Shown here piece by piece: positions 28,241 to 52,773 of a stretch of DNA of 64,000 nt (its first letter is position 1; each line of letters begins with the position of its first letter). The position numbers and the translations under genes are program-made. The notes beneath the pieces were generated by a model, which made no database searches, was not told the DNA's origin, and worked only from the letters and a program-made list of their open reading frames with translations. Source of the stretch: Agrocybe praecox (taxonomy: Eukaryota > Basidiomycota > Agaricomycetes > Agaricales > Agrocybaceae); NCBI GenBank assembly GCA_964017145.1, contig OZ024841.1:1178001-1242000 (forward strand), in the 5' to 3' direction.

Positions 28241-28334
28241 ACATAAGGATACTACACTGTATAGTAACATACGATACAAGGAACGTGTCCAGTGTACCGT
28301 ATGATACGGATCCAAAGTCTTCCTTGAACCCCTG
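28241..28334. repeat. KDZ element left terminal inverted repeat
   Basis: 94 bp, aligning over its length with the reverse complement of 51,581-51,674 at roughly two-thirds identity by eye. Each repeat holds two related motifs of the form CAGTGTAYCRTAWGAYAC about 35-40 bp apart, likely transposase-binding sites. The inner ends share TTCCTTGAACC. Confidence 0.85.
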
Positions 28335-28696
28335 TATAAAAGATGTCCCAATATGGATATGGATACTGGCTTCTGGTTGGCTACTGCTCTGGCTCAGATA
28401 GTACCAGGCGGCGACGTCTCTCCGCCACACGCCGCCTCAGGGTTAAAGGAATTACCTGATCACACGGTTATAAATTCTAAAAAGATTTCAAGTTCTTTCA
28501 GTCAGGAGGTGGTATTTCTTGTGTTTTCTACTAGTTATATCAAATGTCCAAGTTTTTTGTGTCACATGCAAGAGGTTGCAGGAAGAATGTATACAAGGTC
28601 TTATGTGTATGAAAAGAGTGAGTTATAATTGAAACACGTTAGAATGATTGAAGGTGGTGGCAGCATAAAGATTTGTATGGTATCAAAACAAGGTAA

Positions 28697-29512
28697 CTAC
28701 ATATCAATATTTGTACTTCCCACTGCTGTTGTTACCTCTGCAAGAGCTTCCTCGATCTTGTTTTCCAACTCCTCAAATACAAACAGGGATTCACGTTCAA
28801 CTTTTAAATGCTCAAGTTTGGTAAGGTAAAGACGGTGGCAGGCATCTTTATACGAAATCCCCAGCCTTTCACGTAGGGCCATGACTTTTGCATGCTGTTC
28901 AAGGATATCATGTTCAGATAATTCCTTGATTTGTGGTCAGAATTTATGCGTGATTATGAAAGTAGAAGTGATATTTACAGGATCAGGGGGAAACTTGATT
29001 CCTAACTCAGTGATACAATCATTGTTATCCAAGTTGTGTGGAATACCATTCTATATGAATAAAAAAAACCATGAAAAACAAAACAAATCAGCAGTGATAT
29101 ACATGGTGGGTAGCAATTATAACTGCTCAGGAAGTCTGAACGAGTGGCAGAGTAAGTGCCAATACAATGGAGTAATGTAGAATTGTGCCGCCCAGCGGTG
29201 CCTACGATTCAAGATACAAAATATATCAAACCACAAACTCACCCCTGTAGGACTCTTGGAAAGCTGTAATTGGACCTTTTTCTTATATTCTGTAGTCTTG
29301 GCGTCGATGTCTTCAACCATAAACGATGGGAAAATAAAAGTTTTCCCATCATTTGTGGTCCGTTGAACATAGCCGGCAGGAATATCAGCAACAATTTTGA
29401 TGGGGTTGTTGCTGCCATCCCCTTTCCTTTGCCTTTTCCCTTCGCGACTTTTTTCTTCGACTCTGGCATAGGATTGTTGGTATTTGGCAAGTATTTTGGG
29501 GGTGAGACTTTT
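28697..29512 (-). pseudogene. Small lysine-rich cargo gene of the KDZ element
   Basis: Exon 1 (about 29,512-29,243) encodes a Lys/Gly-rich start (KKKVAKGKGKGKG) and then, in a shifted frame, IKIVADIPAGYVQRTTNDGK and MVEDIDAKTTEYKKKVQLQL. An intron follows (GTGAGT at 29,242 to ATATAG at 29,051), and exon 2 runs to 28,697 with NGIPHNLD, a coiled-coil-like LGISYKDACHRLYLTKLEHL and EELENKIEEALAEV. A frame change in exon 1 and a TGA near 28,939 break it. Similar small proteins are, as I recall, common beside Agaricomycete KDZ loci. No function is known to me. Confidence 0.6.
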
Positions 29513-29709
29513 TGTTGGAATACCTAATTAACCTCGAAATAGCACATGTGATGGCTATGATTGTTTATCAATCAAGTGACGTGACAGTGTGATGTTGAAT
29601 TTGGCCGATTGATGATCATGATTCACTACCCACCTTCTGTCATTCCGTTCCCATATTTCTTTTCCCACTACCTGTCCGTCTTCGATTTGTGCCGCTTCTT
29701 CGTCTAACA

Positions 29710-32275
29710 ATGGCAAAAAAATATGATGCGGATTACCTCACCCAAAAAATGATAACTTTTGAGAGGGAATTCCGAACGGCACTTGAGAAAAATACCCACA
29801 TTCTTCTTTTGGGATCATTGAATGAAAAAGTGGTAAGTGAAGGATATTATTTCAAAATATATCCTATGTTTAATCCTTTTACAAAGCGGCATGTTGTTAA
29901 GCGTGTAATGCGGGAGAAACCCAAGTTATCGAGTCACCCAACCATTGGTGGGCAGACCTTGCTAGCCAAGGTTCTCGCGGTGTACAGGGAATGCCACACC
30001 AACGAGGCCAAGAACGAAACCGATCTACGCCAGGCTATTCAAGAGATTGTCCGAAGTCATTCTGTGGATGGAAATGTCGAAGGAAGGGTAACTGTCACTG
30101 AAGAGGGCAAAGATGGTGCCGGAGTGCACACATTATCCAGCAAAGACGTGTCGACAGCAAGCAACAAAAACAACAATGAAGAGACAGTATCAAGGAAAAG
30201 CGGCCCCTCTAGCGCCGCCAGTGTGTTGACCACCAAGACCACTGAGCAAAACACAGCGGCGTCAGAGAACAACGAAGAAAGTGCAACGGGCATAACCAAA
30301 AAAGCCAAAGCGACAATGAAGAAAGTGGTCTTGGCGGCGTCTGTGTTGGCGCCAACCAAAGAGAAGAAACGTAAGTATTTTATTATTACTATCGAAATAT
30401 AGACTACTAATGAATAAATAATATACACATATGGAACAAGAGGAGCCACCACGCAAGAAAATGCGAGCAGGTGAAGATAGGACTGATACCGATGAAGATG
30501 CACCAAAGAAGAAGGGCAAGGGCAAGGGCAAGGGCAAGGGCAAGAAGAAGCAGGCAGCGGCGACATCGGTGGCACATTCCGATAGCGAAATTGAGATTGT
30601 CAAAATCGTTGCCAATCCATCCGCCAGTGATAGCATCAAGATTAAGAAGGAAAAGATGGACAGAGCATTTGGAAAGGCGGAGGAGATTGCAAGAGCACAA
30701 GCTGCTGCACCAAAGTGGACGGCGCCGAAAGGAGCGGCGCCAAAGCGTAAGCGCCCCCATTACAGCGATGAGGAGTTCTCTGACGAAGACGCCAACGGTG
30801 AAGACGACGGTGAGGAGGGTGATGATGGAGAGGAGAATAGCAAGATCGAGGTTTGTCCTCCAATCGTGCTCACTGGTGCATCTGTCGAGGCAAAGGTGAA
30901 GAGCCTCGCTGCCTACGGTCGTCCTGCGCAGTGCGAGCGATGTAGGTTGAAAGAAAACAATGCTCGCCCAAACTCCCGAACACGTCTTCATTCAAGGTTG
31001 GCGATGATGGTCTCATCGGTGTTGCATGTGTCGTGTGCCAAACGGGCAAGAAGCGCTGTATCTGGTATGGACTACCAACATTCATGCCCAAGGAGGCAAC
31101 CTACCAGCTGGCGGTTCCCAGAAATGTGAAGACGGAAGGTATGACAAGGCTCATTATCGCAGATAAAAGTAAGTAACTTGCATTACATGCATTTATTTGA
31201 AAGGAACTCACTCGTGATATATTTAGGCGCCGAGAATATCGCCGCCTTGGAGCGCCGCCTTATCGATCTTGAAACAAAGTTTGCCGCGCATGAAATGGAT
31301 CACACTGCGCTCCAGCTTAGGGTTAAGCAGGCAGAGACATATGTCGCCTCCGTGGAGACCAAGTTTACCAACGCACAAGAAAAGTGGAGGCTTGTCAAAG
31401 CCGACATTGTAAAGGACGCAAAGGGCATGCGAACCAGCATCGACAAATTGAAGACCAACGTCAACGCCTTGAAGATCGCCCAGGGGGATACGTCAGCGAC
31501 TGACCTTGCAGAGGTGAAGACCATCGCTGATCTGGCTTTGAAAGAAAGTCAAAACACCAAGGCTTGGATGGCCAACATGGATAAGTTGTTTAAGGTGGTG
31601 ATGAAAAAATCGATCGCCGCTTTCTCTCTGTCTGCTGCATCCTCCTCTGCCGCTATCTTCCCTGCCGCCACTGACGCCGCCACTGACGCCGCTACAACTG
31701 AGGTTATCGACCTCCCCTTTGATTCCCTTGCTTTGGTGTATGGTGGTGACGAGGAAACAAGTTCAAGCAGTGGGGAGGAAAGTGCGATGGACGTCACTGG
31801 GGATCACGACGTTTCTGATGCAGAGTTGGATCGTGAAAACGTCATCGCCCCCCCCATACCCACAGCAAGCGCCAACAACACCAGCACTGATGCCCAAGGA
31901 AAGACTGATCAAGAAACGCGAGACCCAGTCATTATCTCTGGCGCCGCCAATGACACCGCATCGCCATTGCACAACAACCCCGTTCCAGCTGAGACAGATA
32001 TTGAGATGCAGGACACAGAAACTGACATCCCCCCGGTCCATGAAAGCAGCACTATCAAAATTCCTGCATCATCCACCACTGACATTACATCTGTCGCTGC
32101 CTCGCCCTCTGCCTCTGCCTCTGCCTCATCTGCCGCTTTCGCCTCCAATATCACTGTTTTGCCCAACAGCACTGTTGGGCTCATTCCCTCAACCTCCAAT
32201 ATTTCATTGCCCCAGGTAGATGCAAGGACCCTATCTAACATATTCGACGAAGTCGTTGACTACGAAGATGCTTGA
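29710..32275 (+). pseudogene. Cys-cluster and coiled-coil cargo protein of the KDZ element
   Basis: Start at ATG 29,710. Introns by sequence are 29,833-29,886, 30,371-30,440 and 31,169-31,226, and the last two join in frame. The N-terminal part is charged. It is followed by KKMRAGEDR, a KGKGKGKGK run, acidic DEEFSDEDANGEDDGEEG and a cysteine cluster (CERC...CVVCQTGKKRCIW) that resembles a Zn2-Cys6-like DNA-binding region but needs a one-base frame correction near 30,967. After the third intron comes a heptad-rich coiled coil (LERRLIDLETKF to about residue 130 of that exon), then a long Ser/Thr/Ala/Asp-rich tail ending SNIFDEVVDYEDA. It may bind DNA for the element; that is inference. Confidence 0.65.
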
Positions 32276-32520
32276 AGGCGGTGGCTTTTTTTTTTTGATA
32301 TTTATGTAAATATTTGTCTTGTGATCTTGGTGTGTACTAGCTAGTACACACCTACTTGAAATTTTATTAAACTTATTCTTGTGCTCATTACTTGGAACAT
32401 TCTACACAACCAATGTATTGATCATACAAGAGTAAGTGCATAGAAAGAATCAAATGATTCAACTTCAGTAATGTAAGATAAGAATCAAGTGATACAACTT
32501 AAGCAATATAAGAGATATTT
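32276..32520. other. Convergent intergenic spacer
   Basis: Lies between the convergent ends of two cargo genes. It holds a T-run (32,287-32,297), GTACTAGCTAGTAC as a 14-bp palindrome near 32,334, and a repeated ATAAGAATCAA.TGAT..AACTTNAG motif at 32,445-32,500. No gene is seen. Confidence 0.5.
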
Positions 32521-32521
32521 A

Positions 32522-34975
32522 TTAAGCCTCTCTTTGCCGAGGCTTTCTTATACGTTTCTCAGATACCTGCCATCTTGCTGCTTCTTCAAGAGCTTGGTCA
32601 TCTGGCCCGAGTCTTTTTCTGCCCTGCTTATGTTTCACGTTTGAAGGCAAATGTGGATCTTCATTATGAAGATGCGCCATCTGAGGCGCCGTCTGGAGCG
32701 CCGCCACCACATGACCACTGTTTGTAACTTGTAAACCTAGGAGTGGCGACATCCTTTGAGAAAGAAGGTCATTAGGCGATGAATAGATTGAGGGAAGGCC
32801 GTTACTGTTGATCAATGAAGAGTTCATGTTTGTTGGTGAGTTGATCAAATGGTAGGAACGCATTTGTGAGTCGGGTGGTCTTTGTTGAGTATCTTCATGT
32901 TGATGGCAGTGTGTAGTTGTTCTAACAGATGCAATTTGATCTTGTACAAGCAATGACAATTGACCAGTTGGCGGCGCCAGGGGCGCCGGAGAGGTGGCTG
33001 AGGATGCCATTTGACGTTCTTTGAGTAGAATTGGATCAATAATAATGTCCTGGGCTGCAACTTGGTTGTGCGGCCCACCAATAGAATCATGCATCCCAGT
33101 GCAGTTCTGAAGTTGAAAACCATCGTCTGTGTTCATGTCGATATTTGCGATAACAGAATCATGCATGGCAGTGCTGTTCTGGACATTGCCTCTGTTCATG
33201 TCGATATCTGGAATAAAAGGAGATACTGGCGGCGACCGTGGTGGCGCCTCCGGCAATAACATATTGTCAGATACTATCATTTCGTCGGAGGAAGAGGTGA
33301 CAGAAAGAGATGGATCTGTAGGGGTAGGCATAGTATAAAGGCCACTCATATCTAACATCTGTTCATGAGGGCCTGGGGCCTCACGGGATTTCCGTTTCAA
33401 TGCTTCGCTGTTTGATTTTTCGGGAGCATTGCAGTCTGGGGCAATGAACTCACTTTCTTCTTCTTCAATCTCATCTTTGTTAGGATATGGCGCCTACATC
33501 AACATTCCTTTGCACCGCCTTGTAGTGACCCTTTTGAATCGAAAGACCTGCTCCAAAGAAAATGTTTGCTGACGTTCCCAAATGTGATCAAAGAATCTTT
33601 TCATCTCATCCAGTGTGAGACTCCTGGGGTCTTTGAATGACCAGTTCTTGGGCAAGTACCGCTTGTCAAAGAACTGTTTTTGATCTTCTACAATGAGTCC
33701 ATAGGGCACAGGTTGATTGCGGCCAGATGCCATTTCTACAATAGAAGGTAAGGTATTGCACAGGAGGCAGCGCTTGGTGCGGCACCTATCCGGAAAAGTA
33801 AGACTTACCATAATGAATTGCAAGATACTTGCGAAAAACAGCTTCATAATCTGTTTTCGATACCTTTCCACTAGTATGAAGAATGGAGGTAATTTTTGGA
33901 AAACCTGTCGGTCGGTCCATTTTGATATATCTTGCATATAATTCGGTGGCCTGATAGTTGAACCTCACCTTCACACCATCCCTCTGCTCCAAAAGATGTT
34001 CAATGTAAGCAAAAATGTGTCGATGCCAATCGCCGACCATCTCCTCATTCTCTTGCTCAAAGGTATCAGCTTTTACACCAAGGAGGCTGGCCATATTATC
34101 ATGCCTAGTTCCCATGAGTCCTAATTCAAAGGCATAGCAAAGAAGATTGCTCACACTTGAATGCCCCATGTTCCATTTTCACTTTTTGATAACACAAAAT
34201 TTAAGGACAGTAGTCCTATTTCAAAATAATTGCATCTTGCGGCATGATCAAGACGTTTATAAATAAATTTCTTAGCTAACCTGAGAGAGTTACATTAATA
34301 ACTAGGACTGGGTAATACCAGGCGGCGCCGCAGGTGCCACCCATGATCGCGCATTTGAGGGATTAGATGACCCACTTGCGTTTTATATGTTCTGGATTTC
34401 CATCCTTCTTTCTACGTTCTATCTCTTTGTCAATTGCCCTCTCCTCCTGGGGTGTGAGCCTCAATATGACCCTCCCAATCACTCTGGATCGGTAGGCAAA
34501 CCATCCTTCTGTTTTACTATCAGCAGTCTCCAATCCCATAAGCTGCGCAATTTCCGCAAAGACTTCATTGTTTTTTTGTTGCCATATAATGTCAGATTTC
34601 TTCACAATGAATGATGGTTGTGACTCGTCCGTGGATTTCTGGAGCCTCCATGTATTGCGTACATAAGAAAGTAGATCCTGAAAGAATCAAGTAAATTAGC
34701 ACGCTGTTGTAAGGATGAGAATAACATGCTTAGCGCCTCACCTCAACTTTGTGTTATTTCTCAAAAGAGTTAAACGAAGCACCACAGGACAGGACCCAAA
34801 AATTAAAAAGTTCAACGCAAAGCTCTCCAACAATAATATGACGCCTTTCAGCTGCTGTTGGTGCTTCCAAGTACTTTGTCTTGTATGGCAAAATGATAGC
34901 CAATTCCTCCTCATCATATTTGGGCGCCTTGGTTCGCGAGGAGTTTATGTATAGGTCGGGGTCGAAGTCAGTCAT
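32522..34975 (-). pseudogene. Large conserved cargo protein of the KDZ element
   Basis: The first exon (34,975 to about 34,740) starts MTDFDPDLYINSSRTKAPKY and has a charged N-terminus; TAA near 34,754 interrupts its end (fits CAA). Exon 2 (about 34,672-34,372) includes DLLSYVRNTWRLQ, SDIIWQQKNNEVF and LTPQEERAIDKEIERRKKDG. Later exons (34,170-33,494) read MASLLGVKADTFEQ, EHLLEQRDGVKVRFNYQ and YGLIVEDQKQFFDKRYLPKN. TAG at 33,494-33,496 (fits CAG) separates the last part, a Ser/Pro-rich tail ending in KHKQGRKRLGPDDQALEEAA and RKPRQREA. The overall plan matches, from memory, uncharacterised proteins common in Agaricomycete KDZ neighbourhoods. Function unknown. Confidence 0.65.
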
Positions 34976-35153
34976 GTCTGGGGATATGAGTAGCGGAAGG
35001 AGATTGTGGTTGAGGTATATAAATTATATATCCCCTAAAAAGTGTGGCACATGAAAAATAAACAAAAACATCTGGAAACATCTGGATACATATTAGGGGA
35101 GGGTGAAATTCAGCCTGTACTGTCAAATATATGTATCAACCATGGGTAGTTGC

Positions 35154-35576
35154 TGTCAGGGTTTCCCTTATTTTCCTATATTTTTCTATATTTATTTTAT
35201 ATTTTTCCCTTTCATAATTATATAGATATCTTATCTCTTTTACATCTTTGATTATCTCCTTGATTATCTTTTTGATTATCACTCAGATCTTTGATTAGAT
35301 ACTTATCATCTTTATTTCCCATGAGCACTGCCTCAATTGCTCCATATCATTCTTCTCCTTATTTCATGATGTCATTGTCTTATTCATCATTTCTTTATGA
35401 TGTCATTGTCTTACTCATCCTTCTGTTTCATGATGTAATGTAGGAATATTCTAGAATAACTGTAGGGTATATATACTGGACATGTAGGTAGCTGTAGCCC
35501 CAGCTTCAATCTCTTAGGATATCCACTATCATTGGTGTGATCTCTGAGAACCATTGAGTGTCTCTCTCTCTCTTCA

Positions 35577-35615
<39 letters not shown>

Positions 35616-35666
35616 CTTTGTCTTTGTTGGTGGCCTTGTCACACTGATCTTAGTGTTGCCCTGACA
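35154..35666 (+). mobile_element. Solo LTR of the Gypsy-1 family inside the KDZ element
   Basis: 513 bp, TGTCAGGG...CCCTGACA, transcribed to the right, with target duplication GTTGC/ATTGC (35,149-35,153 and 35,667-35,671, one mismatch). The expected empty-site sequence is present in inverse orientation at about 36,385-36,400. It contains an expanded CT microsatellite at 35,561-35,612. Confidence 0.9.
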
Positions 35667-36440
35667 ATTGCCAGTTTTAGGTGATGCATCCACAGCGGTA
35701 ACTACCCAACTCCCTAATTGTATGTATCAAGCCATCCGACTGGCCGTCTGTGACTATATGTGACTATAGTCATGTGTCTGTTATTGATGGCATCAAATCT
35801 GATGCACATGACTTTTTGCTTGCCTCTATTTACATGTTTGGGCTCCACTCATATTTTTATATGGCCTCAAATACAAACAAATAATAAATAATGAAGTCAG
35901 CAGGCAGGGGCAGGCAGGATACAAAGCAAACAAGCCTTTTTGAGTGATGTAACATCCAAACAACCCAATAAGGCAAGAGGACTTTGGACTTTGAGATTTT
36001 GAGATAAAGTCCTCTTGATGCATGATAGATGGGGCCAATATATGACCAAATAAGATCAAATCTATTTTTAGATTTGATATATTTATAGACTTGGTCTATT
36101 TTTAAAACACTTTACGAATTTGCCAAACAAGATCATTCTATTTTTAGAACATCTGACAAATGTGATGAATCAAACAGGTCTATTTTTAGAACACTGTAAT
36201 AGAAATAGGTTTGGTGGCTGTGCATCACATGACATATCACATGACATATAGATCACATGCAGATCACATGCATATCACATGTATATCACATGCTTTTCAC
36301 ATGACTTCACCTCTATAGTCACTGTCAGTCACTCTGATACATGGTATTGGGAAGTTGGGTAACTACCGCTATGGATGCATCACCTAAAACTGGCAACTAC
36401 CCAAGATGTATGCATAGATCTGACAGTATTAGGTGTGAAA
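35667..36440. repeat. Small dispersed repeats upstream of the transposase gene
   Basis: 35,785-36,035 matches 6,660-6,895. 36,240-36,430 matches the sequence around 820-834 and 1264-1390 and, inverted, 35,125-35,153 with 35,667-35,720. CATATCACATG is tandemly reiterated at 36,240-36,305. The arrangement suggests one small element with inverted ends (35.1 and 36.4 kb) inserted upstream of the KDZ gene. Confidence 0.6.
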
Positions 36441-36510
36441 TTTTCATTACTATGCCCAAAACAGTGGAGCTCATCTGTTTCATCCTTCTACATTCTTTGT
36501 CAAACAACCT

Positions 36511-39500
36511 AATGGCACCCAGACAGTCAAAAAAACACCGGCAGGCTCGGAGGCGTGTCGAGCAAACAGATTTAGAAGCACAATCAGTTCTACGGGTCCG
36601 TCAAACAACATATGCCAGAAGGAATGGCAAGCAAACTTCGAAGACTGTGTTCCAACCTTTGTTCACACATGTAGAAAGGGCATCTGAGTCTGATTCAGAC
36701 TCAGATAATGATAATATTCACAACAACAACCATTCAAATGGTTTTGATAATGATGGTAACATGTCGGACGGTATGTCTTCCAACCTTGAAGACCCCCAAA
36801 TAGCTGAGAAATAGACGCGGAAGGTGCGAAAATGTTATTTGATGAGTGGGCGCCTATTAACTAATTTTAGACACAACATCATTATATTCGGGAATTTGTG
36901 GACCGAATTGACGATCTGTTACTTGGATTACTGAGTCGTGAATCACAGACAAAGGAAGATTTTACCTGTGGCAAATGTACGAACGGAAATACCGCAGTCT
37001 GGCGTTGCAAGGACTGTAGCTTAGGAAGTGTGATGTGTCGTGAGTGTATGCGCCATGCTCACTGTGAAAATCCCTTTCACAAGATTCAGTGCTGGTCTGG
37101 TGGACACTTTTGCCCTGCAGAGTTATGGGAAGTTGGAACATATCTACTGGTAAAACATCAAAAAGACAAAGCTGTCTGTGCCAGCCTGCAGCTCAATATG
37201 ATCTACTTGGAGGAGCAGGAAAAGACAAAAGACACAATAGAGCAGGAACAGCTGCGGGCAATATATGCAGATCAAGTAGGCGGCGGGGCAGGCGGCGCCA
37301 TGGATGTTGACGACACTGACGATATTATACCAACAACGGCAACATATACTCCTCAAGATATTTTGAATGAACCGGACCAACAAACATTTGATGACAGAGA
37401 TGAGGCATTTGACCAATATCTGGAGAAACTTCATCTCGCCAACCAGTTGAAAAACAACATCATACCAGTAACAGAGGACAATGGCGCCGCCGAGAGCGCC
37501 CCCCCTCAACCCGCAGGCGCTACAAATGTAATGGAAGATGGGGATGATACCTTTGATCATGCAGATGAAGCTGTACAAGCACTTCCACAATACTTAGGAC
37601 CAGAAACAAATGCTGTGGACGAACTTGATCAAGTTCTTCATGAAGATAGTCAACGTGGTAAACGACCCACACGCAATATGTTTTATAACAGATATGTTCG
37701 TGTTGTGCATACCAATGGTCTACACAATCTTGCCATGGAGAGAGACAACTGCCAATCGACCTCCTATATAACCACTTGGTTCCCTCCAGTTTCCAACAAG
37801 TGAAAACCATTTTCACGACCCATGTTCTTGATTATTATTGCCTTAGCAATCTTGAACTAAAGGCCTCTGCTTATCACTTTTACAATCTCTTGCACCGCCA
37901 AACAGTGCCGATGGCACCGGCGCAAGTGTTGGACCTTTATTCAGTATTCAGAAGGATGACACGACTGTGGCGTTGGATGAAAAAGCTTAAATGGGCGGGA
38001 TATGGATGTCATGGCAAAGATGTAGCACATGTGCAAGACGGTAAACTAGCAATTTTCTGTGTGGCATGTCCCCAGACAGATGCAAAAAACAAGAATGTTG
38101 CTGATAATTGGCAAGAAGATGAACATGCATGGGTTTACAAACACGTTCTTGTGGCTGATGGAAATTTCAAGGCGGACCATGTAAAAGCCAAATCACCTTC
38201 GCAAGATGTATGGCTTTCAGAAGGGTCTGGAATGGACCCTAAATGTTCAAAATATTGGGCATTTTTAAAGACTGCTCTTGAACGCTTCACAGTAAGTTAC
38301 CATATTATAAAGCGCCGCAGCTTGTGGGGCAGTGGGCACCGCAGTATTGATGTTATTGTCCACAGAAAGCACCATGTGAAAATACCTTTCGAGCAATTAT
38401 GAATGCTCTGCTTGCATCCAAGGTTTGCGATGTAACAGGAAAGGTAGCTATGGCTTGCGCTCGACATGGATGCTACTGCCCTGGCTCCCTCGTTGATCTA
38501 TATCATGGTGAACAACAAAAGAATGTCGACTTTGCACTTCTTGAAGCGATTAAAAATGACCATCCACAGCAAGGAGTTTTGCTTATATACGACAGCGCTT
38601 GCCAATATTTTGTGCATCTTATGGAACACATTGGAGCGAAGTTACCAGAAGGCTTAACAGTTGAAAGTGCAATCAGTCTCTTTCATGTACATGCTCACAA
38701 GGACGAATGCTTCTTTCGGTTTGCAACAAGTTTCATTCAAGGCGCCGCCATATGTGATGGTGAAATATTGGAGTCACTATGGTCTATTCTTAATGCTATC
38801 TCACACTCTGCACGAACAGCAACCTTGGCACATCGTGCTGAAATGCTGGATGACCATGCCTGTGATTCAAACCACAAGAAGATCCTTGCAATGATAATTA
38901 CCCTTTGCAAAAAATTCAAAAATGCAGACCTCACTTGCCAGAAGTGGAATGAGGATTATGAGAAGCAGTCCAACACAGTCAGTGAAGAAATCCTTACAGA
39001 ATGGCGGCGTGAGGTTGTACATGCTGAGAATACCAGGCACGTCAATCCCGCAGCAATGGATATCTACATGGCCAGGGTTGTAAGCGCTGGTGCGCCGCAA
39101 GAGGCGCTGATTCCTACCGATGCCTCTACCAACGCTGTTGAAGCATATTTTGACCTTGTTATTGTTGTGGAGAGAACTCAGTAAGTCACACAAAACTATA
39201 TTCAATAATGTTATGCTAAGTTTTGTTAGGGCGGAAATCAAATTGTCAAACCGTCTATATACAAAACAACCAAGAGAGGAGTTATGACACAAGATAGAGG
39301 CAACCCGCTTAACATTGCAAGGCTTGCTCCTGAAACTAGCCCAATTGCAGGAACAAGCAGGTATCACCGAGATTCACACAACAGCGGACACAAATGCGGC
39401 AAATGATTTCATCTTTCAGTGGGAAGATGTCGCCGATGAGAGCGGCGCCGAGGACGATAATGCTGATTCCTCTAACAGCAATCCAGGTTTACAGATGCCC

Positions 39501-40341: not shown

Positions 40342-40448
40342 TAAGTATATCAAATTGATCACATATAATAAACTTTTTTTTTTGTGGCACATTCCCACAT
40401 CTCACATCTCTTTGCTTCCTGTGTTACTTTGTCCTTTGTCTGTTTAAA

Positions 40449-42259: not shown

Positions 42260-42776
42260 TATATGTATAGCAGTATATATAAATGACTCCCATTTTCTTT
42301 CATATCAATTATGGTGTGTGAGCTGGCGCACTTATCATAATCATTTTTAGATACACAAAGCCTTTTAAAATTCTGTTAGGGCTTGGTTGAATTTTCACAT
42401 CTAACTGTGAACCGCCTTTAAAATAAGTAACTGTGCCCCTATCCTATTGTGCTTTTCATGCACCTGTCAAGTTTCCTCATTTGCGTAGCGGAGAGGAAAG
42501 CGGTGCCAATACCGTGTCCACAATGAGCAGTGTTTTTGTGCTTTTATCCCCATTTGGCTACATATCCGTGAATTATCACTACTAATTTGATTGGCAGCGA
42601 AGCACACGGTGATACAACCGGTGTTCGGCTGTGACTGAACTTTAACCAAGTATCTATCCTACTTAATTTTCGGCATAATAAACACGTTTATTATTAAGTC
42701 TACATAGGTACAGAGCGAGGATAGCTACATGTTTGGCTGGGGGAAACCATTCTATGAACCCTAGGACGAACCTTAC
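42260..42776. other. No recognised feature
   Basis: AT-balanced sequence between the last cargo gene and a solo LTR. I see no coding frame or repeat with a partner in the window. Confidence 0.4.
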
Positions 42777-43240
42777 TGTCAGGGCAACACTAAGATCAGT
42801 GTGACAAGGCCACCAACAAAGACAAAGCAAGAGAGAGAGAGAGAGAGATGAAGAGAGAGAGAGACACTCAATGGTTCTAAGAGATCACACCAATGATAGT
42901 GGATATCCTAAGAGATTGAAGCTGGGGCTACAGCTACATACATGTCCAGTATATATACCCTACAGCTATTCTAGAATATTCCTCCATGACATCATAGAAA
43001 GGAATGATGAATAAGGCAATGACATCATAAAGAAAGTAAAAGAATGATGTGGAATGATGTAGAATGGATGAGGCTATGCTCATGGGAAATTAAAGTGATA
43101 AGTATCTAATCAAATGATAATCAAGAGATAATCAAGAGATAATCAAAGATATGAAACAGATAAGATATCTACACATCTACAAAAGGGAAAAATGCGAAAT
43201 AAATATAGAAAAATAAGGAAAAATAGGGGAAACCCTGACA
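42777..43240 (-). mobile_element. Solo LTR of the Gypsy-1 family inside the KDZ element
   Basis: 464 bp, TGTCAGGGCAAC...GAAACCCTGACA, with a perfect 5-bp duplication CTTAC (42,772-42,776 and 43,241-43,245). It closely resembles the solo LTR at 35,154 (shared GATGAAGAGAGAGAG tract and CATGTCCAGTATATATACC), so the two form a subfamily. Confidence 0.93.
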
Positions 43241-43245
43241 CTTAC

Positions 43246-44067
43246 GAATGCTAGAATTAGTTATAGTAGTTCCTCGGAAATGCGTGGAACGCTTTACCAG
43301 CAATGCAGCAGGATCGAAGACTCCTAGGATAATATTCAACCATCAGGAATGTAAGCTAGAGCCTGCTGATAATAAGCTTAACGGCGCTATAGCCACTTAT
43401 TATTACGCAGTGCGCAATGCGTCCACATCTACCTAATATGGAAACGGAAAGTTCCCACCATATGAAAGTACATGTAAACTACTGCCAACATTCCTAGGAA
43501 CGCTAACTCAAGGCGGTAGGACTGATCCTAGCATTAACAAAGTACATTACTGGTCCCTGAGAACATAGTGGGCACTATGCAAACGACGAGACAAGCACTA
43601 GTAATGTCAATTAGGACTTGCCGACGTCTGCTCGAGTCAGATCGCTGATAAACCTAAAAGGAGAAGTTCCTAGGAATGCTTACACATGGTCTTAAGACCC
43701 TCGGATATGCGCAGTTACCTTAAACGGCAGTTGTGGAGCCGAGGATTGTAGATCCATACGATAACACGGTACTCCAATGCTTCGGATCCTACGACGTCGA
43801 TCAATGATCGTCGGCTAATGCGAATAAGCGCCCTCGGAGCGTCATGCTCGAGTCAGCGACTTGCCCAACCATACGAACCCTTCCGAGGGTACACAAAAAC
43901 ATGCATGGTACCTACTGGTTGCTTATGCATCAAGTGGAGCAACCTAGCGTTAACCAATAATATTATTTCCTGTATTTTCCGAAACCTAGCAGTATATAAG
44001 CAGCCTGTAAATTACCGTAGCACCCCAGATAAACTAGAACCCAGTTGTCCACATTTGAGGAACGCGC
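43246..44067. repeat. Unassigned repeat-like DNA rich in CCTAGGA motifs
   Basis: Contains several TTCCTAGGAA/TTCCTCGGAA/CTCCTAGGAT variants. Similar motifs occur at 50,450-51,000, just past the Gypsy-2 insertion. The two were probably one continuous element, possibly a long Copia LTR or its internal part, before Gypsy-2 inserted at 44,067/50,440. Confidence 0.4.
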
Positions 44068-44277
44068 TGTCAACGTGAAAAAGTTATTCACCTGGGTTTA
44101 CCGAAAGAGATGATCTTTGGGATATTCCAGTTAGTTCGGGAGGTCCTAACTACACTCTATAATCTCGAAAATATGAGATATATGACAACTGTTCTGAGTT
44201 GAAGGGAAAGTACAAGTTAACGTAGACAGTGATATTAACAACTCTGACTACGTAACGATGGATTTGGTAACGTAATT
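44068..44277 (-). repeat. Gypsy-2 LTR-end copy, left
   Basis: 210 bp, TGTCAACGTGAAAAAG...GGTAACGTAATT, duplicated without visible change at 47,528-47,737. On the minus strand it ends CGTTGACA, as expected for the 3' end of an LTR. Confidence 0.9.
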
Positions 44278-44431
44278 GAAGTGGTAATGCAATTTGAGAT
44301 TGGACAGTGTTATATGCAAAGTTGTGACGGAATGTTGAACTTCTGTGAGGTGGAATCTTGTTAGCTTTAATTGAGACTAAAGGTTACGTACTTGGATTGA
44401 GAAGACAGACTTCTTGCTTAAGTAATAACAA

Positions 44432-45145
44432 ATGGCAGTTGAGGACAGCATTCCAGAAACTTTTTCACATGAAAAAGTGAGGCAGGCCCCGCTTATTCCA
44501 GCAACGCCATCAACAACGCCGACTTCTCTAAATCCCTCCTCCTGGTTTCCCCCTCGCAGCATTTTTCATCATACTTCTAAAAGCACTCACCCTATGTTTG
44601 CTTATACTCGCCCGCCCCGCTTTTTGAGGAACGAATTCATAAATCAATGGCATGACACCAATCCAGTCTGTCTGCAGTGTGACCGCACCGACGTCATTGA
44701 AGAGGCTTACTTCTCAGGCGCAATCTTTCGTCTGGAGGCCAAATCCTTTCACGCTCTCAGTATTCCCACCATTTATATTGGGAAAAAGGTTATCCTCAAT
44801 GGCCATGAAGACAACAGCGTAGTCTATTTCGTCACTCGCCTACGTATCCGCAAAGGCGACATCAATTATATTCAAGCCACAGCATACAACATCAACCGCG
44901 TAGCCATTGAAGATCATCCAGAATGGCCATCATTTATCTTCAAAGTCAGGGGAGAATGCAACAAGATCGAAGTTGATGAAGAGACAAGGAAATGGATCAA
45001 GAACAGCGAAAAACACCTTCGCACTCCCCAAGTCACTTGTCTGTCCGCTTTTTTCTCTCTTCCTCATCTTATACTCGTTCTGATACAATACATTCGATCA
45101 CCTCCTAACTTCCCTCCTACTACCACATCCCTTGAACAAGTATAA
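44432..45145 (+). CDS. Unknown ORF, paralogue A, within Gypsy-2
   Basis: 237 codons from MAVEDSIPETFSHEKV. Pro/Thr-rich start, then a conserved-looking region: FRLEAKSFHALSIPTIYIGK, KVILNGHEDNSVVYFVTRLR, WPSFIFKVRGECNKIEV and a short C-terminus. The middle (residues about 95-185) aligns with paralogue B at 45,282-46,142: both have an I..K.I.IG/RCNNR-I-LNG/KG...VVYFV/VTYMV-..R-R..-G core and a WP.FI..V block. It is uninterrupted and opposite in strand to gag-pol. I know no family for it. Confidence 0.6.
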   Translation: MAVEDSIPETFSHEKVRQAPLIPATPSTTPTSLNPSSWFPPRSIFHHTSKSTHPMFAYTRPPRFLRNEFINQWHDTNPVCLQCDRTDVIEEAYFSGAIFRLEAKSFHALSIPTIYIGKKVILNGHEDNSVVYFVTRLRIRKGDINYIQATAYNINRVAIEDHPEWPSFIFKVRGECNKIEVDEETRKWIKNSEKHLRTPQVTCLSAFFSLPHLILVLIQYIRSPPNFPPTTTSLEQV

Positions 45146-45281
45146 TGTATTGGAAGGCTGCGATGTATTTTTTTATGTATTTTTTTTAATTTTTATAAAT
45201 AAACACAAACCGCGCAATTTTTGACTGTGGAAAATAATCAAGCGTTAGCAGCCAATCAAAACCAAACAGTAAAGTTTTTTT

Positions 45282-46142
45282 TTGGAATTAACAACCAGGG
45301 CCACAAGCGAAACTGATTCCAATATAACCACCAAGACGATGAACATTCTTGACTCCTCTCAAACCCCTCTTCGCCCTCAAACTGCACTTTTTGTCAGTGA
45401 AAGCGATGCCGAAATTGCCAGAAAACGCTTTCCCTCCAGTGATAACTTAATGCAGCTATATGGACGCCAGATAGCTATGCCCCAATCCCACCACAGTCAA
45501 AACTATGCTGACAGCAAGCGAGAACGGATTTTCAGATGCCCTAAGCAGTACATTAATCATCTAGACATAGAGCGTGTTGAAGAAGAAACAGCATTTCTTG
45601 ACGTACCTTGGCGAATTGAAGCAATACATTATAAAGGAATCTCCATTCGCTGTAACAATCGAATAATTCTGAAAGGAATCACTAGTCACGACGTCACCTA
45701 CATGGTTCATCGAAGGCGAAACGACAATGGTATATTTGCCTGTATTGAAATCATTCCTGTTCAGCTGCGCAGAGATGGACCAGCATTTGATATGTATGGA
45801 TGGCCACCCTTTATTTTGGTTGTCGCGGCACACAAAACAACTTTACACCCAGTCAAGCTAATAATGTCAAAATACCGAGTATGGGAAAGCATCAAGGACG
45901 TAGGACAACAAGCCTTAACCTCAACACAGTCGAAAAAGGAACAAGAACAACCGGATCAACAAGGCTCGGATCACTTCCACATGCCAATCTATTCTGCGCT
46001 AGCTAATGACATAATTATTAACACGCAAACCCCATCATTCTTTTTCCATCCCCCAAACTCTTGTTCAAACCTTTATCCTCCTATACTTCTACCTCGTCTT
46101 TACCCAATTTTTCCACACTTGAATCATGTTGACAATAATTAA
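45282..46142 (+). CDS. Unknown ORF, paralogue B, within Gypsy-2
   Basis: 286 codons as read from 45,285; the first good internal ATG gives MNILDSSQTPLRPQTALFVS. The region GISIRCNNRIILKGI, VTYMVHRRRNDNGIFACIEI and GWPPFILVVAAHKTTLHPV parallels paralogue A. Upstream comes YADSKRERIFRCPKQYINHL. The C-terminus is Pro/Phe-rich. 136 bp separate it from A, in the same orientation, so the pair arose by tandem duplication and divergence. It is preceded by an A/T-rich spacer with a T-run at 45,168-45,200. Confidence 0.6.
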   Translation: MELTTRATSETDSNITTKTMNILDSSQTPLRPQTALFVSESDAEIARKRFPSSDNLMQLYGRQIAMPQSHHSQNYADSKRERIFRCPKQYINHLDIERVEEETAFLDVPWRIEAIHYKGISIRCNNRIILKGITSHDVTYMVHRRRNDNGIFACIEIIPVQLRRDGPAFDMYGWPPFILVVAAHKTTLHPVKLIMSKYRVWESIKDVGQQALTSTQSKKEQEQPDQQGSDHFHMPIYSALANDIIINTQTPSFFFHPPNSCSNLYPPILLPRLYPIFPHLNHVDNN

Positions 46143-46399
46143 ACATCTAATTACCATGATTTGCGTACAACTATTATGTTTATTTTTAAATTCATTTCTT
46201 CGACATACATATATTTACTCTTCTTAGTATGCTAGAGGCATAAGTAGTATTAGAGTAGATTTTATTTTTTTTATTTGTATTTGTTGTTTATTTATCATTA
46301 TCTTGGACTCATATCTATTTGGTACTGTGTTACATGCTTGAGTTCCTTGCTTAAACAACTAGTTGCAACTGAGGGCAGTTGAAATCTGTTCCCCGCGGA

Positions 46400-46900
46400 T
46401 GTCAGACATGCTTTTTGTTTGATATAAAACCAGTATGTTTAAAGCAAGAACATATACATGTATAACACAGAAATTATATTTTATCATGAAACACTATCTT
46501 TCCTTGTTGTTATAGTAATAGTTGTCTTGACGCGTTGGCATAGTGCTATTCCTGCCTTTGCATAGCGATACACTGTTTCAACAAGTTATGCACAGCTTTA
46601 GCACTCTTTGTAACCATACACACAGCCCTGTGTAACCTTGTGAACCATCACACCATCGTTATAGTAGCGCATAGCAGTTCTGTATGCTAATTACTTAAAA
46701 AGAGTATATAGCTCCCGCATTCTACTTGTTTCAAAGTCATAGAAACAATTGGGGCTGTGCTCAAGAAAAGTATAAAAGGGCACCAAAATTTGGAACAAAG
46801 AGAAAAGACATCTTATTTTTTCCCTTCTGATTTTATTACCAACTTAAACACTAGACTCTGTGTCTGTGTTCTTCTGCTTATATCTTCAAGTTGTATAGAA
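46400..46900 (+). promoter_or_regulatory. Gypsy-2 LTR U3/R region in inverted orientation
   Basis: Starts TGTCAGACATGC. The first 156 bp recur inverted at 50,284-50,439. It continues to TATAAAAGGGC (46,770), a strong TATA-like box, and a leader with CTAGACTCTGTGTC. At about 46,900 it is joined head-on to the gag coding end, so it cannot drive this gag. Confidence 0.7.
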
Positions 46901-47524
46901 TACAAGCTTGGAATATACACTATCTACTACCTGAAACACTGCTGTGACATGTTCGGAACAATACTCCAGAAGTGCTTTACATTTCTCGCCTTCATTAGTA
47001 ATATTGTAGCGTGTAAGAAGATGATTATAGTGACTAAGAAATCGTTCAACTTGAGTATATTTGCCTTTGAAAGTTCTTGGTGCTGAACGTGACCCTCGTA
47101 CAGGCATATTAGCTAACCCTGTTAAAGCAATTGTTGCCTGTGACATAGTGTTTGGAGATGTTGTTGTACGTTGAGTAATGTTTGGTATAGGTTGTATGAC
47201 AGGATTGGTAGAGCTTGGAGCTGTTGTAGCTGAAGTTATATTTGTAGATTGGACAAAAGGAGTTGCAGAAAGGCTAGATGTTGTTGTTGTTGAATTCAAC
47301 GTTGTAGGGGTGGATATAGTGTGCTCAGACGAGCTGGGTGTATGATTTCTGGATGAGCTAGGCTCTGTTTGAGGTGTATGTGATGTTATACCTTCGTCGT
47401 CAGAAAGGTTATAATGAGGATTGTTATCTCGGTATTCGTGGTTATCAGATACGTTCATAAAATGTAGGATATGTGAATTTGATAGTGTAGTTATAAAAGA
47501 AACCTCCCTCGCGGTGGGCTCCAA
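46886..47524 (-). pseudogene. Gypsy-2 gag N-terminal fragment
   Basis: Starts at 47,524, four bases inside the 47,528 LTR end, and encodes a Ser/Thr/Asn-rich head and then GSRSAPRTFKGKYTQVERFL, SHYNHLLTRYNITNEGEKCK and ALLEYCSEHV. This is the conserved capsid start of a Gypsy family common in Agaricomycetes. It ends at the rearrangement joint near 46,900, so the rest of gag is missing. Confidence 0.8.
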
Positions 47525-47527
47525 TTA

Positions 47528-47737
47528 TGTCAACGTGAAAAAGTTATTCACCTGGGTTTACCGAAAGAGATGATCTTTGGGATATTCCAGTTAGTTCGGG
47601 AGGTCCTAACTACACTCTATAATCTCGAAAATATGAGATATATGACAACTGTTCTGAGTTGAAGGGAAAGTACAAGTTAACGTAGACAGTGATATTAACA
47701 ACTCTGACTACGTAACGATGGATTTGGTAACGTAATT
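47528..47737 (-). repeat. Gypsy-2 LTR-end copy, right
   Basis: Identical by eye to 44,068-44,277. It lies directly before gag on the minus strand, as a 5' LTR end should, with TTGGAGCCCACCGCGAGG after it as a possible primer-binding site. On its other side it is fused to truncated integrase coding. Confidence 0.9.
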
Positions 47738-50103
47738 TCCAGTCTTTTTAGGCTTCGAATCTGACATTCATGACATGATCGGACATGATGATACATGTCT
47801 GCCCTCATATGAGGCCAAAAAAATCGATGACGTATAGTTTCATGCACCGCCTGGACACCTCGGTGACCTAAATTCTCATGCGCTTGATTTAAGATTATAA
47901 GCTTTTTGGCAGGCTCAGTGACTACGAGTAAAGGTGGCTTTGATCCATTTCGCTTATAGAGTTTGGTTTCCTTCACAAAGAATTCCATCGCCTTAGCAAG
48001 GAAACGTCGCTTTTTTTGTAGGTCGGCAATGTTGGGTGATTCGAGAGTTGTTAAAAAATGTTTAATGTCATTTAAAAGTTCTTCTTGCTGTGCTCGAGCA
48101 GCAAAACATGAGGGCAAATTAATATCAGTGTTTGTATTGACTTTTTCTTCCAGGTTGAACGTAAAATTGTGATCCGGAATGAATGTTAGAAGGGCGATGT
48201 TATCTAGCCATGAGTCGTCATCACTTTCGGGTTCTTCTCCTTCTGCAAGTGGTCGCCTAGATAGTGCGTCTGGGCCTTTATGCTTTTCCGCAGGTACATG
48301 TATTAATTTGAAATCAAACATAAGGATGCCTTGAATCCATCGATTAACTGCTGCGCTTGGCTGTAGATCGGGCTCATTCAACATTCCTTTTATGTATTGA
48401 GCATCAACTTCAACGTGAAGTTGCTTGACACCAATGATATACAGTCGCCAGTGTCGAAGGGCACGATACAACCCAAATAGTTCTAATTTTGGCTGTGAGT
48501 AACGCGATTCTCTTTCTGACATAGGAACAGATCCGTATCGGGCAGGCCGACGTTTTCCGTCTTCATCAATCTGTGATAATATCATTCCTGCAGCATCTCT
48601 ACTTGAGTCAACGGAGAGGATGACAGGTAGGGTGGATGTGTAATCAATGGGTCGTAATGCAGGGCTACTTGAAATTAGTTCTTTAATTTGATCAAAAGCA
48701 GCTTGACGACGTTCATCCCAAACAAATTCAGCTCCTATGTGGTATAATTCCGTTAATGGTCTGACAATTTTGGAGTAATTAGGTATCCATATCCGAACAG
48801 TTCCGCAGAGCCCCAAAAATTGACGTACTTCTTTTGGCGTAGAAAGCTGCGGCCAGGTAAGTATCTTCCCTACCTTTTTATTGTCAGGTTCGCGTCCTTT
48901 TGAATTACATTTCTGTCCAATGATAAGCACTTCAGGTAAGCATATTTGCGCTTTATTTGCTGCAAACGTAGCACCAGAACATGCAACACGGTGCATGATT
49001 CTATGCACATCCTGTGCGTGTTCCCAAATGAACTGACGTATGCCTTCATTTCCAGGCATGGTGGCAGGTTTACCATTCTCGAGTAAATACTGAGTTTTTG
49101 GGCCTTTGACGGGAAGGTCATCTATAAATATATTGGCTGTATTAGGAATTTCATCTTTTAATACCATCACCATACATTTCTGAAACTCTGCAGGCGAATT
49201 GGTGAATCCTGTTGGTAATGACGTGATTTGTAATAGTCCCAATGGTGTCATAAAAGCTGTTAATCCTCGACTTCTAGGGTGTATTTTTCGTGCGTCAAAT
49301 CCCCAGAATAAGTCAAATACAGTGTAACATTGATGTCCTGCAAATCCTTCAACAAAATCATCAACAATAGGTAGTAATCCCGCATCTCGGACCGTAATTT
49401 TGTTTAGCGGCTGAAGATCATGTACAATCCTTAGTTTGCCATTCTTTTTAAGAACTACAAACCATTGGGAGCGATAGGATGATTGACTTTGCTCATATAC
49501 TCCTGCATCCATTTTTAATTTCAGAACGTCAAGGACTTGAGGTAAAAGACCAGGTGGTATTGGAATGTTTTTGTATTCCCATGGAGAATGCGGAATGGTA
49601 GGAATTATGTATGGAGAAAAATAGGATTCCTTCAAGGTACCACGTTCTACATCTTCGAATGCAATTGCGTTTTCATTGAGGATCATGATAAATTGAAACA
49701 GTTTTTCTTCTTCTGTTGATAGAAATCCTTGTGAATTTATATTTAACTCAGCCATGCGCTCTAGTGTTATCTTGTTTGTGGGTGTAAATTTTGGTGGTCG
49801 GATAGGTAATTTAGGTAATGTTAGAAGGGGATCTTCGGGGATTTGTCTGGTTACATGACAATCTTCTGGAAATGTGGTTGATACGGGATGAACTTTCTTA
49901 TCTACACGTTTATATGCTGTAAATACATTGACAGTATCAAGTCCAGGTACAAATATGAGTTCATCGTCTTCTTCTGCAATGTATGTTTGTCCATTGTAAA
50001 GGAAGATAGTGTCAAGACTTTGCGCAGGGAACATGATAGAGTTCAAGTTTGACTGTGTATATGTGCTTTGTGTGATGTGCATGTTGTATGGCGCGGGGAA
50101 CAT
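47738..50103 (-). CDS. Gypsy-2 pol, truncated in integrase
   Basis: About 790 uninterrupted codons. RT spans about residues 175-345 with SQWFVVLKKNGKLRIVHDLQ, FDLFWGFDAR and FIDDLPVKGP (residue about 327), so the catalytic Asp pair is intact. The connection region has EVRQFLGLCGTVRIWIPNY. RNase H has LSVDSSRDAAG, SQPKLELFGLYRAL and VEVDAQYIKGML, then DALSRRPLAEG. The H2C2 finger reads HENLGHRGVQAVH...CHECQ. Coding stops at the LTR-end copy, so the integrase core is lost. The long open frame and intact RT show this copy is young. No protease motif is seen at the N-terminus. Confidence 0.88.
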
Positions 50104-50283
50104 GATAGTATTCAGGTTTATATTATTAAATATAACTTGAATAAGATTAGGTATGTTGGAATACAGTTCTAGTCCTGCTAGATGTGTGTGTACAGACGTA
50201 CAAGATTGAATTAGGCGACAAGCTATTTTTAATGGAGTGGCTGTGTTCTGTGTTATTATTAGATTTTTGTATGTTAATAGGAT

Positions 50284-50439
50284 GCAGGAATAGCACTATG
50301 CCAACGCGTCAAGACAACTATTACTATAACAACAAGGAAAGATAGTGTTTCATGATAAAATATAATTTCTGTGTTATACATGTATATGTTCTTGCTTTAA
50401 ACATACTGGTTTTATATCAAACAAAAAGCATGTCTGACA
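50284..50439 (-). repeat. Gypsy-2 LTR-start copy
   Basis: 156 bp, reverse complement of 46,400-46,555, ending at the outer boundary of the element next to GCGC. The promoter part of the LTR is not present beyond it. Confidence 0.88.
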
Positions 50440-50549
50440 GCGCATTGAGTTGCAAACTCCTAGGATCGACCTTTGGTACCTAATAAATCTCTGTGAGAGT
50501 TGGTTTTATTGAACAGACTACCTACCGTGTTATTTGAGCATCTTGGCGT

Positions 50550-51160
50550 TAGTTGAGCGACTTGAGTTAACTTGTAGAGTTCTCGAGGAACCTAAATAAA
50601 TGTATTGGGATAAAGTTTCCTCTGTCTTAAGTGACATAAAGCTTAATACCCGCCTAAGTGGCAAGAATTGTCTAAGTGACGCCTAAGTGGCCCGTTCCTA
50701 GGGATAAGTTCCCTGCCTAAGTGGCAAATTGTCTAAGTGATGCCTAAGTGGCCCGTTCCGAGGGATAAGTTCCCTGCCTAAGTGGCAAATAGTCTAAGTG
50801 ACGCCTAAGTGGCCCGTTTAGGATTGAGTCCCCTTTCTAAGTGATTAAAAGACTTTGGATTAAGTATCCAGCCTAAGTGGCAAACTACCTACACACTACA
50901 TCTTGTGGAAACACATTAAATCTATGTTTACACTTTCCGAGGAACTTCGCTTTGTGCGTAAGCTACTCAAACACTTGTGATCTTCGATCCTAGGAAATGT
51001 TCTGTTGCATTAGAGAGCGTATCTTTAGAGAGAAAACATAATTAACGACGTGTATCGCGTATCCCTCCCACGAAAGAACTAATCACATTGATTGGGTTTT
51101 GTTTCGGAGTATATACAAAGTACAAATCGTACATACACACTCAACCCCGCAGCAAGAACC
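50550..51160 (-). repeat. Copia-1-type LTR
   Basis: Aligns with the Copia-1 LTR at 10,370-10,862 through AGTTAACTTGTAGAGTTCT, the GCCTAAGTGGC repeats, TTAAAAGACTTTGGATT and ATACAAAGTACAAATCGTAC. The GCCTAAGTGGCCCGTTC unit is repeated three times here, once more than at 10.4 kb. No coding region of this element is adjacent, so it is a solo LTR or a remnant cut by Gypsy-2. Confidence 0.75.
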
Positions 51161-51332
51161 TTAACAGCGCTTATTTATGTTCTCACATAGTGAATGGTTT
51201 TTGTAATATTATCCCCATTTGATCTCATACAGATAATAGGTTGCCATTATTTGAGGTGGTGGCAAACACGGTGGTGCGCGGCGCTGAAACCCTGCACCTA
51301 TGGTATAGGTTTCCTGCAAGTATATTGTAGTT

Positions 51333-51560
51333 TCTGTGCACATCAAAGGTATAATGTCCTCCACAACATACAATGCTACGAGACAACACATTTGTAAATT
51401 TTAATTATATGTAAGCGCCACCGTTGAGCGCTGAGTGGCAGTTGTGTGCATATCAAAGGTATAACGTTCTCTTGAAGACAATACTAATGAGAGAGAATAT
51501 TTGTAAATTTTAATTATATGTAAGTGCCGCCGCCGAGCGCTGAGCAGCAGCAAATATTTC
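51333..51560. repeat. Tandem subterminal repeat of the KDZ element
   Basis: Two copies of about 110 bp share TGTGCAYATCAAAGGTATAA, GACAA, ATTTGTAAATTTTAATTATA and the end TGTAAGYGCCRCCG.GAGCGC. They lie 20-250 bp inside the right terminal inverted repeat, a usual place for transposase-binding repeats. Confidence 0.75.
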
Positions 51561-51580
51561 CTATTTAAGCCCTACCGCGA

Positions 51581-51674
51581 CCAGCGGTTCAAGGAATTCT
51601 TTGAACCCGTGTCTTATGATACACTGGATTGACCCCTGGTTCACATCTTATGGTACACTGTGGTGTACTTAGCT
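51581..51674. repeat. KDZ element right terminal inverted repeat
   Basis: 94 bp. Its reverse complement pairs with 28,241-28,334 and includes the two CAGTGTAYCRTAAGA-type motifs and CCTTGAACC at the inner end. The outer flank is GGCCAGTTC. Confidence 0.85.
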
Positions 51675-52760: not shown

Positions 52761-52773
52761 AGCTTCAATCTTC
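52761..52773 (-). promoter_or_regulatory. Gypsy-1 primer-binding site, probably self-priming
   Basis: Minus-strand GAAGATTGAAGCTG follows the 5' LTR end directly. AGATTGAAGCT is the exact complement of AGCTTCAATCT, which lies in the LTR about 35 nt after the start of the TATAAATA box, where transcription should begin. This is the arrangement used by the Tf1/sushi type of chromovirus, where the 5' end of the RNA primes reverse transcription. No tRNA-like primer match is apparent. Confidence 0.7.

Follow-up and report, generated by a model that had tools for sequence, protein, structure and literature searches.

A decayed copy of a 13.6-kb KDZ DNA transposon with three conserved accessory genes in Agrocybe praecox

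Introduction

Mushroom-forming fungi are rich in KDZ elements, with at least 176 domain matches at E ≤ 0.001 in the genome considered here, and the non-transposase genes of these elements are little studied so far as the literature searched showed. The window analyzed is the 64,000-nucleotide stretch C2:1178001-1242000 of the 59-Mb genome of Agrocybe praecox. It contains a decayed copy of a 13.6-kb KDZ transposon that comprises a transposase and three conserved accessory genes, which we call g1, g2, and g4. We read the element as a cut-and-paste KDZ DNA transposon, most likely of the Kyakuja type, in which g1, g2, and g4 would be partners or regulators of the element itself, and we place the probability of this reading at roughly 0.8. 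The exact ends, near-identical copies, short derivatives, and accessory set make the proteins needed for KDZ transposition directly testable.

Results and Discussion

Copies of the element elsewhere in the genome

The genome was searched with both ends of the element, and the copies found were aligned to the window. Three further full-length copies, C11, C9, and C1, measure 13,610, 13,637, and 13,586 bp, respectively. They have their ends in common with the window element, are 99.2–99.6% identical to one another, and are ∼97% identical to the window core. A preliminary description of this DNA had treated the entire 23 kb as one mobile unit. However, two nested inserts, which sum to 9.87 kb of the 23.4 kb (42%), are missing from all three of the other full-length copies, and the core is therefore ∼13.6 kb.

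35111-36430, no strand: nested insert 1, 1.3 kb; inverted ends of the TACTGTCA type; duplication of 8 bp, GTGAAATT; not in 3/3 other full-length copies; outside the core
42610-51163, no strand: nested insert 2, 8.55 kb, itself with retrotransposon sequence; not in 3/3 other full-length copies; outside the core

Ends and target-site duplication

The limits of the element are 28240 and 51675, so that it spans 23.4 kb in the window. The preliminary start at 28241 was moved outward because all copies begin with C; the base 5′ of it is C in all nine copies that share the window family ends, and the first base is C in 13/13 elements compared. These 13 comprise the full-length window, C11, C9, and C1 elements, the short C7, C10, C5, C8, and C11b elements, and the divergent C3d, C5d, C6e, and C2e elements. 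The termini read CACATAAGG at the left and CTTAGCTG at the right, in the form CACATA...CTG.

28233-28239, no strand: target-site duplication, left copy, GCCAGTT, 7 bp (also from empty sites)
28240-28334, plus strand: left terminal inverted repeat, begins CACATAAGG, with two degenerate CA.TGTA-type motifs at about positions 16 and 51
51582-51675, minus strand: right terminal inverted repeat, terminates in CTTAGCTG
51676-51682, no strand: target-site duplication, right copy, GCCAGTT (also from empty sites)

Terminal inverted repeats of equal length, 94 bp, had been proposed. Such repeats are present, but they are imperfect, with 66 of 94 aligned positions identical, run to 94–95 bp, and start one base further out on the left. 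The pairing of the window ends gives a local score of 71, as compared to a maximum of 48 in 300 mononucleotide shuffles, and the corresponding identities are 67 of 94 positions in C11 and 59 in C3d. Each end carries two copies of the degenerate CA.TGTA-type motif at a spacing of ∼35 bp, in agreement with the duplicated internal motifs first noted, and a CAAAG..TTC..TGAACC-like block comes after the doubled motif. Motif and block are well preserved among members of the window family and in left ends generally; the right ends of C3d and C5d carry weaker versions. Two far elements, C6e and C2e, begin CACATACCA, show the same CAGTGTA spacing, and terminate in CTG. The doubled motifs are presumptive transposase-binding sites.

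A 9-bp target duplication had been claimed. The window by itself permits anything from 7 to 9 bp because the adjoining C and G are also present in the element ends. The length was set at 7 bp because other, independently inserted copies fix it; the 7-bp duplication is exact in 10/13 elements at independent insertions, and 6/7 bases match in C11b. C12d, whose left end is truncated, was excluded from this count. As had been suggested, the element interrupts the gag of a retrotransposon, and the site is empty in all five relatives of that retrotransposon examined, which are the best 5 of 39 other matches. In these relatives the sequence is ACCAGTT, as against GCCAGTT on either flank in the window. 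The unit originally envisaged, 23.4 kb long with a 9-bp duplication and at least four cargo genes, does find support in the window copy taken by itself, where nine bases match beyond 28241 and 51674, but the three uninterrupted copies and the independent insertions make it scarcely credible.

Genes of the core

The four genes of the core are arranged as g1 (forward), g2 (reverse), transposase (forward), and g4 (forward).

29710-32275, plus strand: g1, zinc-cluster-like protein with coiled coil; start taken as the first in-frame ATG, with approximate exon limits; the window copy has a frameshift
32522-34975, minus strand: g2, conserved protein; limits approximate; in-frame stop in the window copy
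36512-40109, plus strand: CxC2/KDZ transposase; exons approximate, 3′ part (39288-40109) assigned solely by continuity; the window copy is frameshifted near 37735
40449-42259, plus strand: g4, with acidic Ser-rich tail; open frame of 605 codons in C11; the window copy is frameshifted twice

The KDZ domain match in the window copy is partial. In the C11 copy, with introns removed by hand, the transposase contains a complete KDZ domain (PF18758, positions 1–217 of 217, E 5e-43) and a CxC2 domain (PF18803, E 2.3e-17) N-terminal to the KDZ core. With this transposase, and with ends that are common to other copies, the initial proposal of a KDZ-type transposon with true ends holds.

The g1 protein of the C11 copy combines a C-x2-C-x6-C-x21-C-x2-C-x6-C cluster with a coiled coil and matches the Pfam fungal zinc-cluster model weakly (E 0.11). 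The six-Cys cluster recurs in five lineages, an invariance that is partly by construction because the cluster was located with a six-Cys pattern; a spliced g1 alignment for C12d, C3d, and C5d yields the same six Cys residues. The g2 gene has four introns in identical places in four elements, and its product has a basic C-terminus. A search of g2 against NCBIfam gave matches at chance level, and its relatives in the protein database number three, all from Agrocybe pediades. For g4, the single relative in the protein database comes from a JGI metagenome.

At least four non-transposase genes had been counted in the element. Extra genes do exist, but there are three of them. The small Lys-rich protein on that list was given without coordinates; the Lys-rich stretches seen in the core fall within g1, the transposase, or g4. 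The Ser/Asp-tailed protein is the end of the 605-codon g4 frame of the C11 copy; in the window, that frame is broken up into three.

Co-occurrence of the gene set and coding constraint

A total of 27 g2 loci, one row each, was derived from 70 matches, and a query from the far clade recovered the same 27 loci and none new. For the transposase, 137 KDZ loci were typed among the matches listed, second fragments of one gene being omitted. At 22/27 loci, g2 lies head-to-head with a KDZ gene at a distance of ≤4.2 kb, where a hand estimate of the chance expectation, with 137 KDZ loci spread over 59 Mb, is ∼0.5. The remaining g2 loci are C12:1.57 Mb, where the gene's own KDZ lies 18 kb off, past an insertion; C339 and C182, with no KDZ on the contig among the matches listed; C10:0.81 Mb; and C12:3.17 Mb. 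By hand count, g1 is found ≤10 kb from g2 at 20/27 loci and ≤20 kb at 22/27; it was not found at the g2 loci C1:4.57, C6:0.86, C9:1.29, C7:0.54, and C12:0.22 Mb. One g1 search gave 13 loci from 34 matches, and three g1 loci (C3:77 kb, C65, and C11:459 kb) have no g2 match nearby. With the near query for g4, 18 of 26 rows were used, small fragments being omitted; 11 of the 18 lie 3′ of a KDZ gene in the same orientation, 10 within 2.1 kb and one at 8.6 kb. Far elements have an acidic-tailed frame in the g4 position.

Thus, the accessory genes do co-occur with KDZ genes, as had been anticipated, and both the search for other copies of the ends and the gene-order check, run within this genome, support the ends and the association. 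Accessory genes standing apart from KDZ genes, which had been named as evidence to the contrary, are a minority (5/27 g2 loci and 7/18 g4 rows). Among the matches listed, 114 of the 137 KDZ loci are without g2, and the gene set therefore marks a subset of KDZ elements.

Coding constraint was measured by comparing the C11 element with C12d by NG86, as nonsynonymous (dN) and synonymous (dS) divergence, where values of dS >1 are rough and unreliable: dN, dS, and dN/dS are 0.146, 2.58, and 0.057 for the KDZ exon, 0.12, 2.46, and 0.049 for the CxC2 exon, and 0.29, 1.86, and 0.157 for g4. With g2 and g1, dN is 0.18 and 0.23, respectively, and dS is saturated in both. These comparisons point to strong coding constraint, the direction being clear in the transposase, g2, and g4, with g1 showing the weakest signal.

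These data bear on a Starship-like reading, in which g1, g2, and g4 are captured passengers that are useless for movement of the element. Such a reading is in keeping with accessory genes that have no proven role, with the five g2 loci at which g1 was not found, and with the many KDZ loci without g2. Five short derivatives with the same ends (3.2–3.8 kb, and one of 5.3 kb carrying an insert) also speak for it, since they keep those ends and the 7-bp duplication (exact in 3/5), and the ends therefore suffice in cis. However, passengers once captured would be expected to vary by lineage, whereas many elements that have diverged to silent-site saturation carry the same genes, unchanged in order and orientation, under coding constraint. 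Pfam scans of the core show KDZ/CxC2 as the only recombinase parts, and no tyrosine-recombinase captain turned up, although no captain-directed search was made. We consider the passenger reading improbable, and the accessory set looks like the element's own machinery rather than random cargo.

Decay of the window copy and short derivatives

All four genes are broken in the window copy, by frameshifts in g1, the transposase, and g4 and by an in-frame stop in g2; to judge by its reading frames, this copy is dead. Relative to the majority of the other three copies, the window shows 275 changes, with 197 C>T or G>A and 42 in the reverse direction. Of the 197, 144 sit at CpG, a class that accounts for 1,190 of 13,534 sites. 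Deamination of 5-methylcytosine leaves C>T/G>A decay at methylated CpG, and the changes in the window copy match the mark expected of this process, with their direction assigned without an outgroup. In the two short derivatives examined, the longest reading frame is ≤109 codons, as expected if these are non-autonomous copies that were mobilized in trans.

Stretches related to nested insert 1 occur at 42777-43240 and 52773-52994. The outer parts of nested insert 2 (42607-44062 and 50440-51163) recur in a short C11 copy (L027), where the retrotransposon part is missing, and the insert holds reading frames at 44429-45145 and 45273-46142.

Proposed mechanism

In the mechanism that we favor, the transposase, with its CxC2 cluster and KDZ core, would bind the doubled motif of each inverted repeat, excise the element, and reinsert it at a 7-bp staggered cut. 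The g1 protein, through its zinc cluster and coiled coil, would bind element DNA, and g2, with its basic C-terminus, and g4, with its acidic tail, may belong to the same complex or to its regulation. Short copies that share the element's ends would have moved in trans. The window copy would have been silenced by CpG methylation and then decayed, while three near-identical copies persist elsewhere. A stronger version, in which this KDZ clade moves by a four-protein apparatus, with the transposase joined by g1 as an obligatory zinc-cluster DNA-binding protein, g2 as a partner of new structure, and g4 as an acidic factor, the whole replacing the TET/JBP strategy of sister Kyakuja elements, is tentative and, in our estimation, rather doubtful.

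The accessory proteins might instead counter host silencing rather than join transposition. VANC proteins of plant VANDAL elements counter host silencing, and the TET/JBP proteins of other Kyakuja elements would be a second model. The strong CpG decay of the window copy fits such a role, as does the likeness of g1 to a DNA-binding zinc cluster. The genome also has a TET-linked KDZ gene, and the TET-linked KDZ that was sampled lies nearest to the g2-linked clade among six others sampled; Tet_JBP gives 11 matches genome-wide (one above the cut-off), none of them inside the window element, so that another gene could take that role. On the other hand, Pfam scans of g1, g2, and g4 revealed no demethylase or dioxygenase, and the CpG decay implies that the window copy was not protected. 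An anti-silencing role in place of one in transposition is possible but unlikely. 

Several observations weigh against the reading of a mobile KDZ element with its own partners or regulators, in addition to the KDZ loci without g2 and the roughness of dS noted above. Movement is itself read from the ends, duplications, and copies. Two of the 13 elements, C1 and C8, have no duplication. The inverted repeats of C5d are weak (52/94), and their score of 7 is inside the random range; a null that contains stretches of the element itself has maxima of 68 and 35, and the overlap-free null peaks at 9 and 13, neither of which C5d exceeds. The g1 gene diverges faster, with dN of 0.54 to C3d and 0.65 to C5d. 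A search of g2 against the PDB gave no match at E up to 10, its Pfam matches are weak and all below the cut-off, and its AlphaFold model, built on a three-sequence alignment, is poor, with a mean predicted local distance difference test score of 36.6. No Pfam match to g4 of the C11 copy was obtained at E up to 1. Finally, hhalign of the far acidic-tailed frame with near g4 (Probab 0.15, E 0.4) leaves their homology unsupported. The inverted repeats and the Kyakuja assignment are at odds in one further respect, which is taken up next.

Classification

The C11 copy of the element has the full-length PF18758 domain and the N-terminal CxC2 that characterize the KDZ superfamily. In the sections of Kojima 2025 (PMC12730594) consulted, the TET+ KDZ elements of Agaricomycotina are Kyakuja, with Zisupton present in Auriculariales and Agaricus bisporus; two Laccaria Kyakuja families have 7-bp duplications and CA..TG ends and are without inverted repeats, and Zisupton and Dileera duplications are 8 bp. 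Our elements share the 7-bp duplication and the 5′-CA..TG-3′ ends of Kyakuja and differ from Zisupton and Dileera in duplication length. They do have inverted repeats, which counts against the assignment, although the absence of such repeats is perhaps not a defining trait. The TET/JBP gene that lies inside TET+ Kyakuja elements is not found in the window element.

In a tree of 15 KDZ domains, which has several unresolved branches and is built on an alignment that is poor in its most distant rows, the nine sampled g2-linked domains group together (96/99). The nearest of the six other sampled domains is that of a TET/JBP-linked gene at C12:2.717 Mb, with 45–51% identity as compared to 16–29% for the other five. 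The element is likely of the Kyakuja type because of its 7-bp duplications, its CA..TG ends, and this TET-linked nearest neighbor among the KDZ domains sampled from this genome, the last being an indirect pointer.

At L048 (C12:2714500-2723000), a TET/JBP-like gene lies ∼3 kb from a KDZ gene. Of the TET matches below the cut-off, one sits at C3:82138 in a broken relative, flanked by its g1 and g4 pieces, and another at C2:2544297, ∼7 kb from a KDZ match. A far KDZ element (L044+L045, C6:2965000-2979500) has a 2,236-bp inverted duplication at its ends with 100% identity, which is either very recent or an assembly artifact.

Comparison with known systems

The elements En/Spm (TnpA/TnpD), MuDR (mudrA/mudrB), and VANDAL21 with VANC are multi-gene DNA transposons in which an accessory DNA-binding or anti-silencing protein stands beside the transposase. 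Their likeness to g1, g2, and g4 is an analogy only, without a demonstrated sequence relation. The study that defined KDZ, by Iyer et al. in PNAS in 2014, reportedly mentions additional proteins in these elements in its abstract. No description of the four-gene set turned up in the literature searched, and that study, which was not among the texts read, may hold part of it.

The ends of KDZ elements had been called rarely described, a view that is out of date: the parts consulted of Kojima 2025 (PMC12730594), of the Marasmius oreades genome paper (PMC8290104), which gives KDZ/Plavaka inverted-repeat motifs, and of a report on Cryptococcus KDZ1–3 with inverted repeats (PMC12810828) all contain such descriptions. 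In Pleurotus, according to the portion of PMC7641404 consulted, CxC2 precedes all intact KDZ elements.

As far as these excerpts extend, the window element resembles the Kyakuja of Kojima 2025 (PMC12730594) in its KDZ transposase, 7-bp duplication, 5′-CA..TG-3′ ends, and Agaricomycete host, and differs in its ∼95-bp inverted repeats, in having no Tet_JBP match, and in its recurrent three-gene accessory set. It shares with KDZ1, KDZ2, and KDZ3 of Cryptococcus neoformans a KDZ transposase with a zinc cluster and inverted repeats. Those elements, in the relevant passages of PMC12810828, are ∼9–11 kb and have CxC1 rather than CxC2, longer inverted repeats of 139–241 bp, and duplications of 8 bp (KDZ1) or 4–8 bp (KDZ2 and KDZ3); their movement has been demonstrated. 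Zisupton and Dileera belong to the same superfamily by PF18758 and differ by their 8-bp duplications (Kojima 2025, same sections). Within a known transposon superfamily, the element is a multi-gene variant whose limits are well defined, and its kind is known from mushroom-forming fungi.

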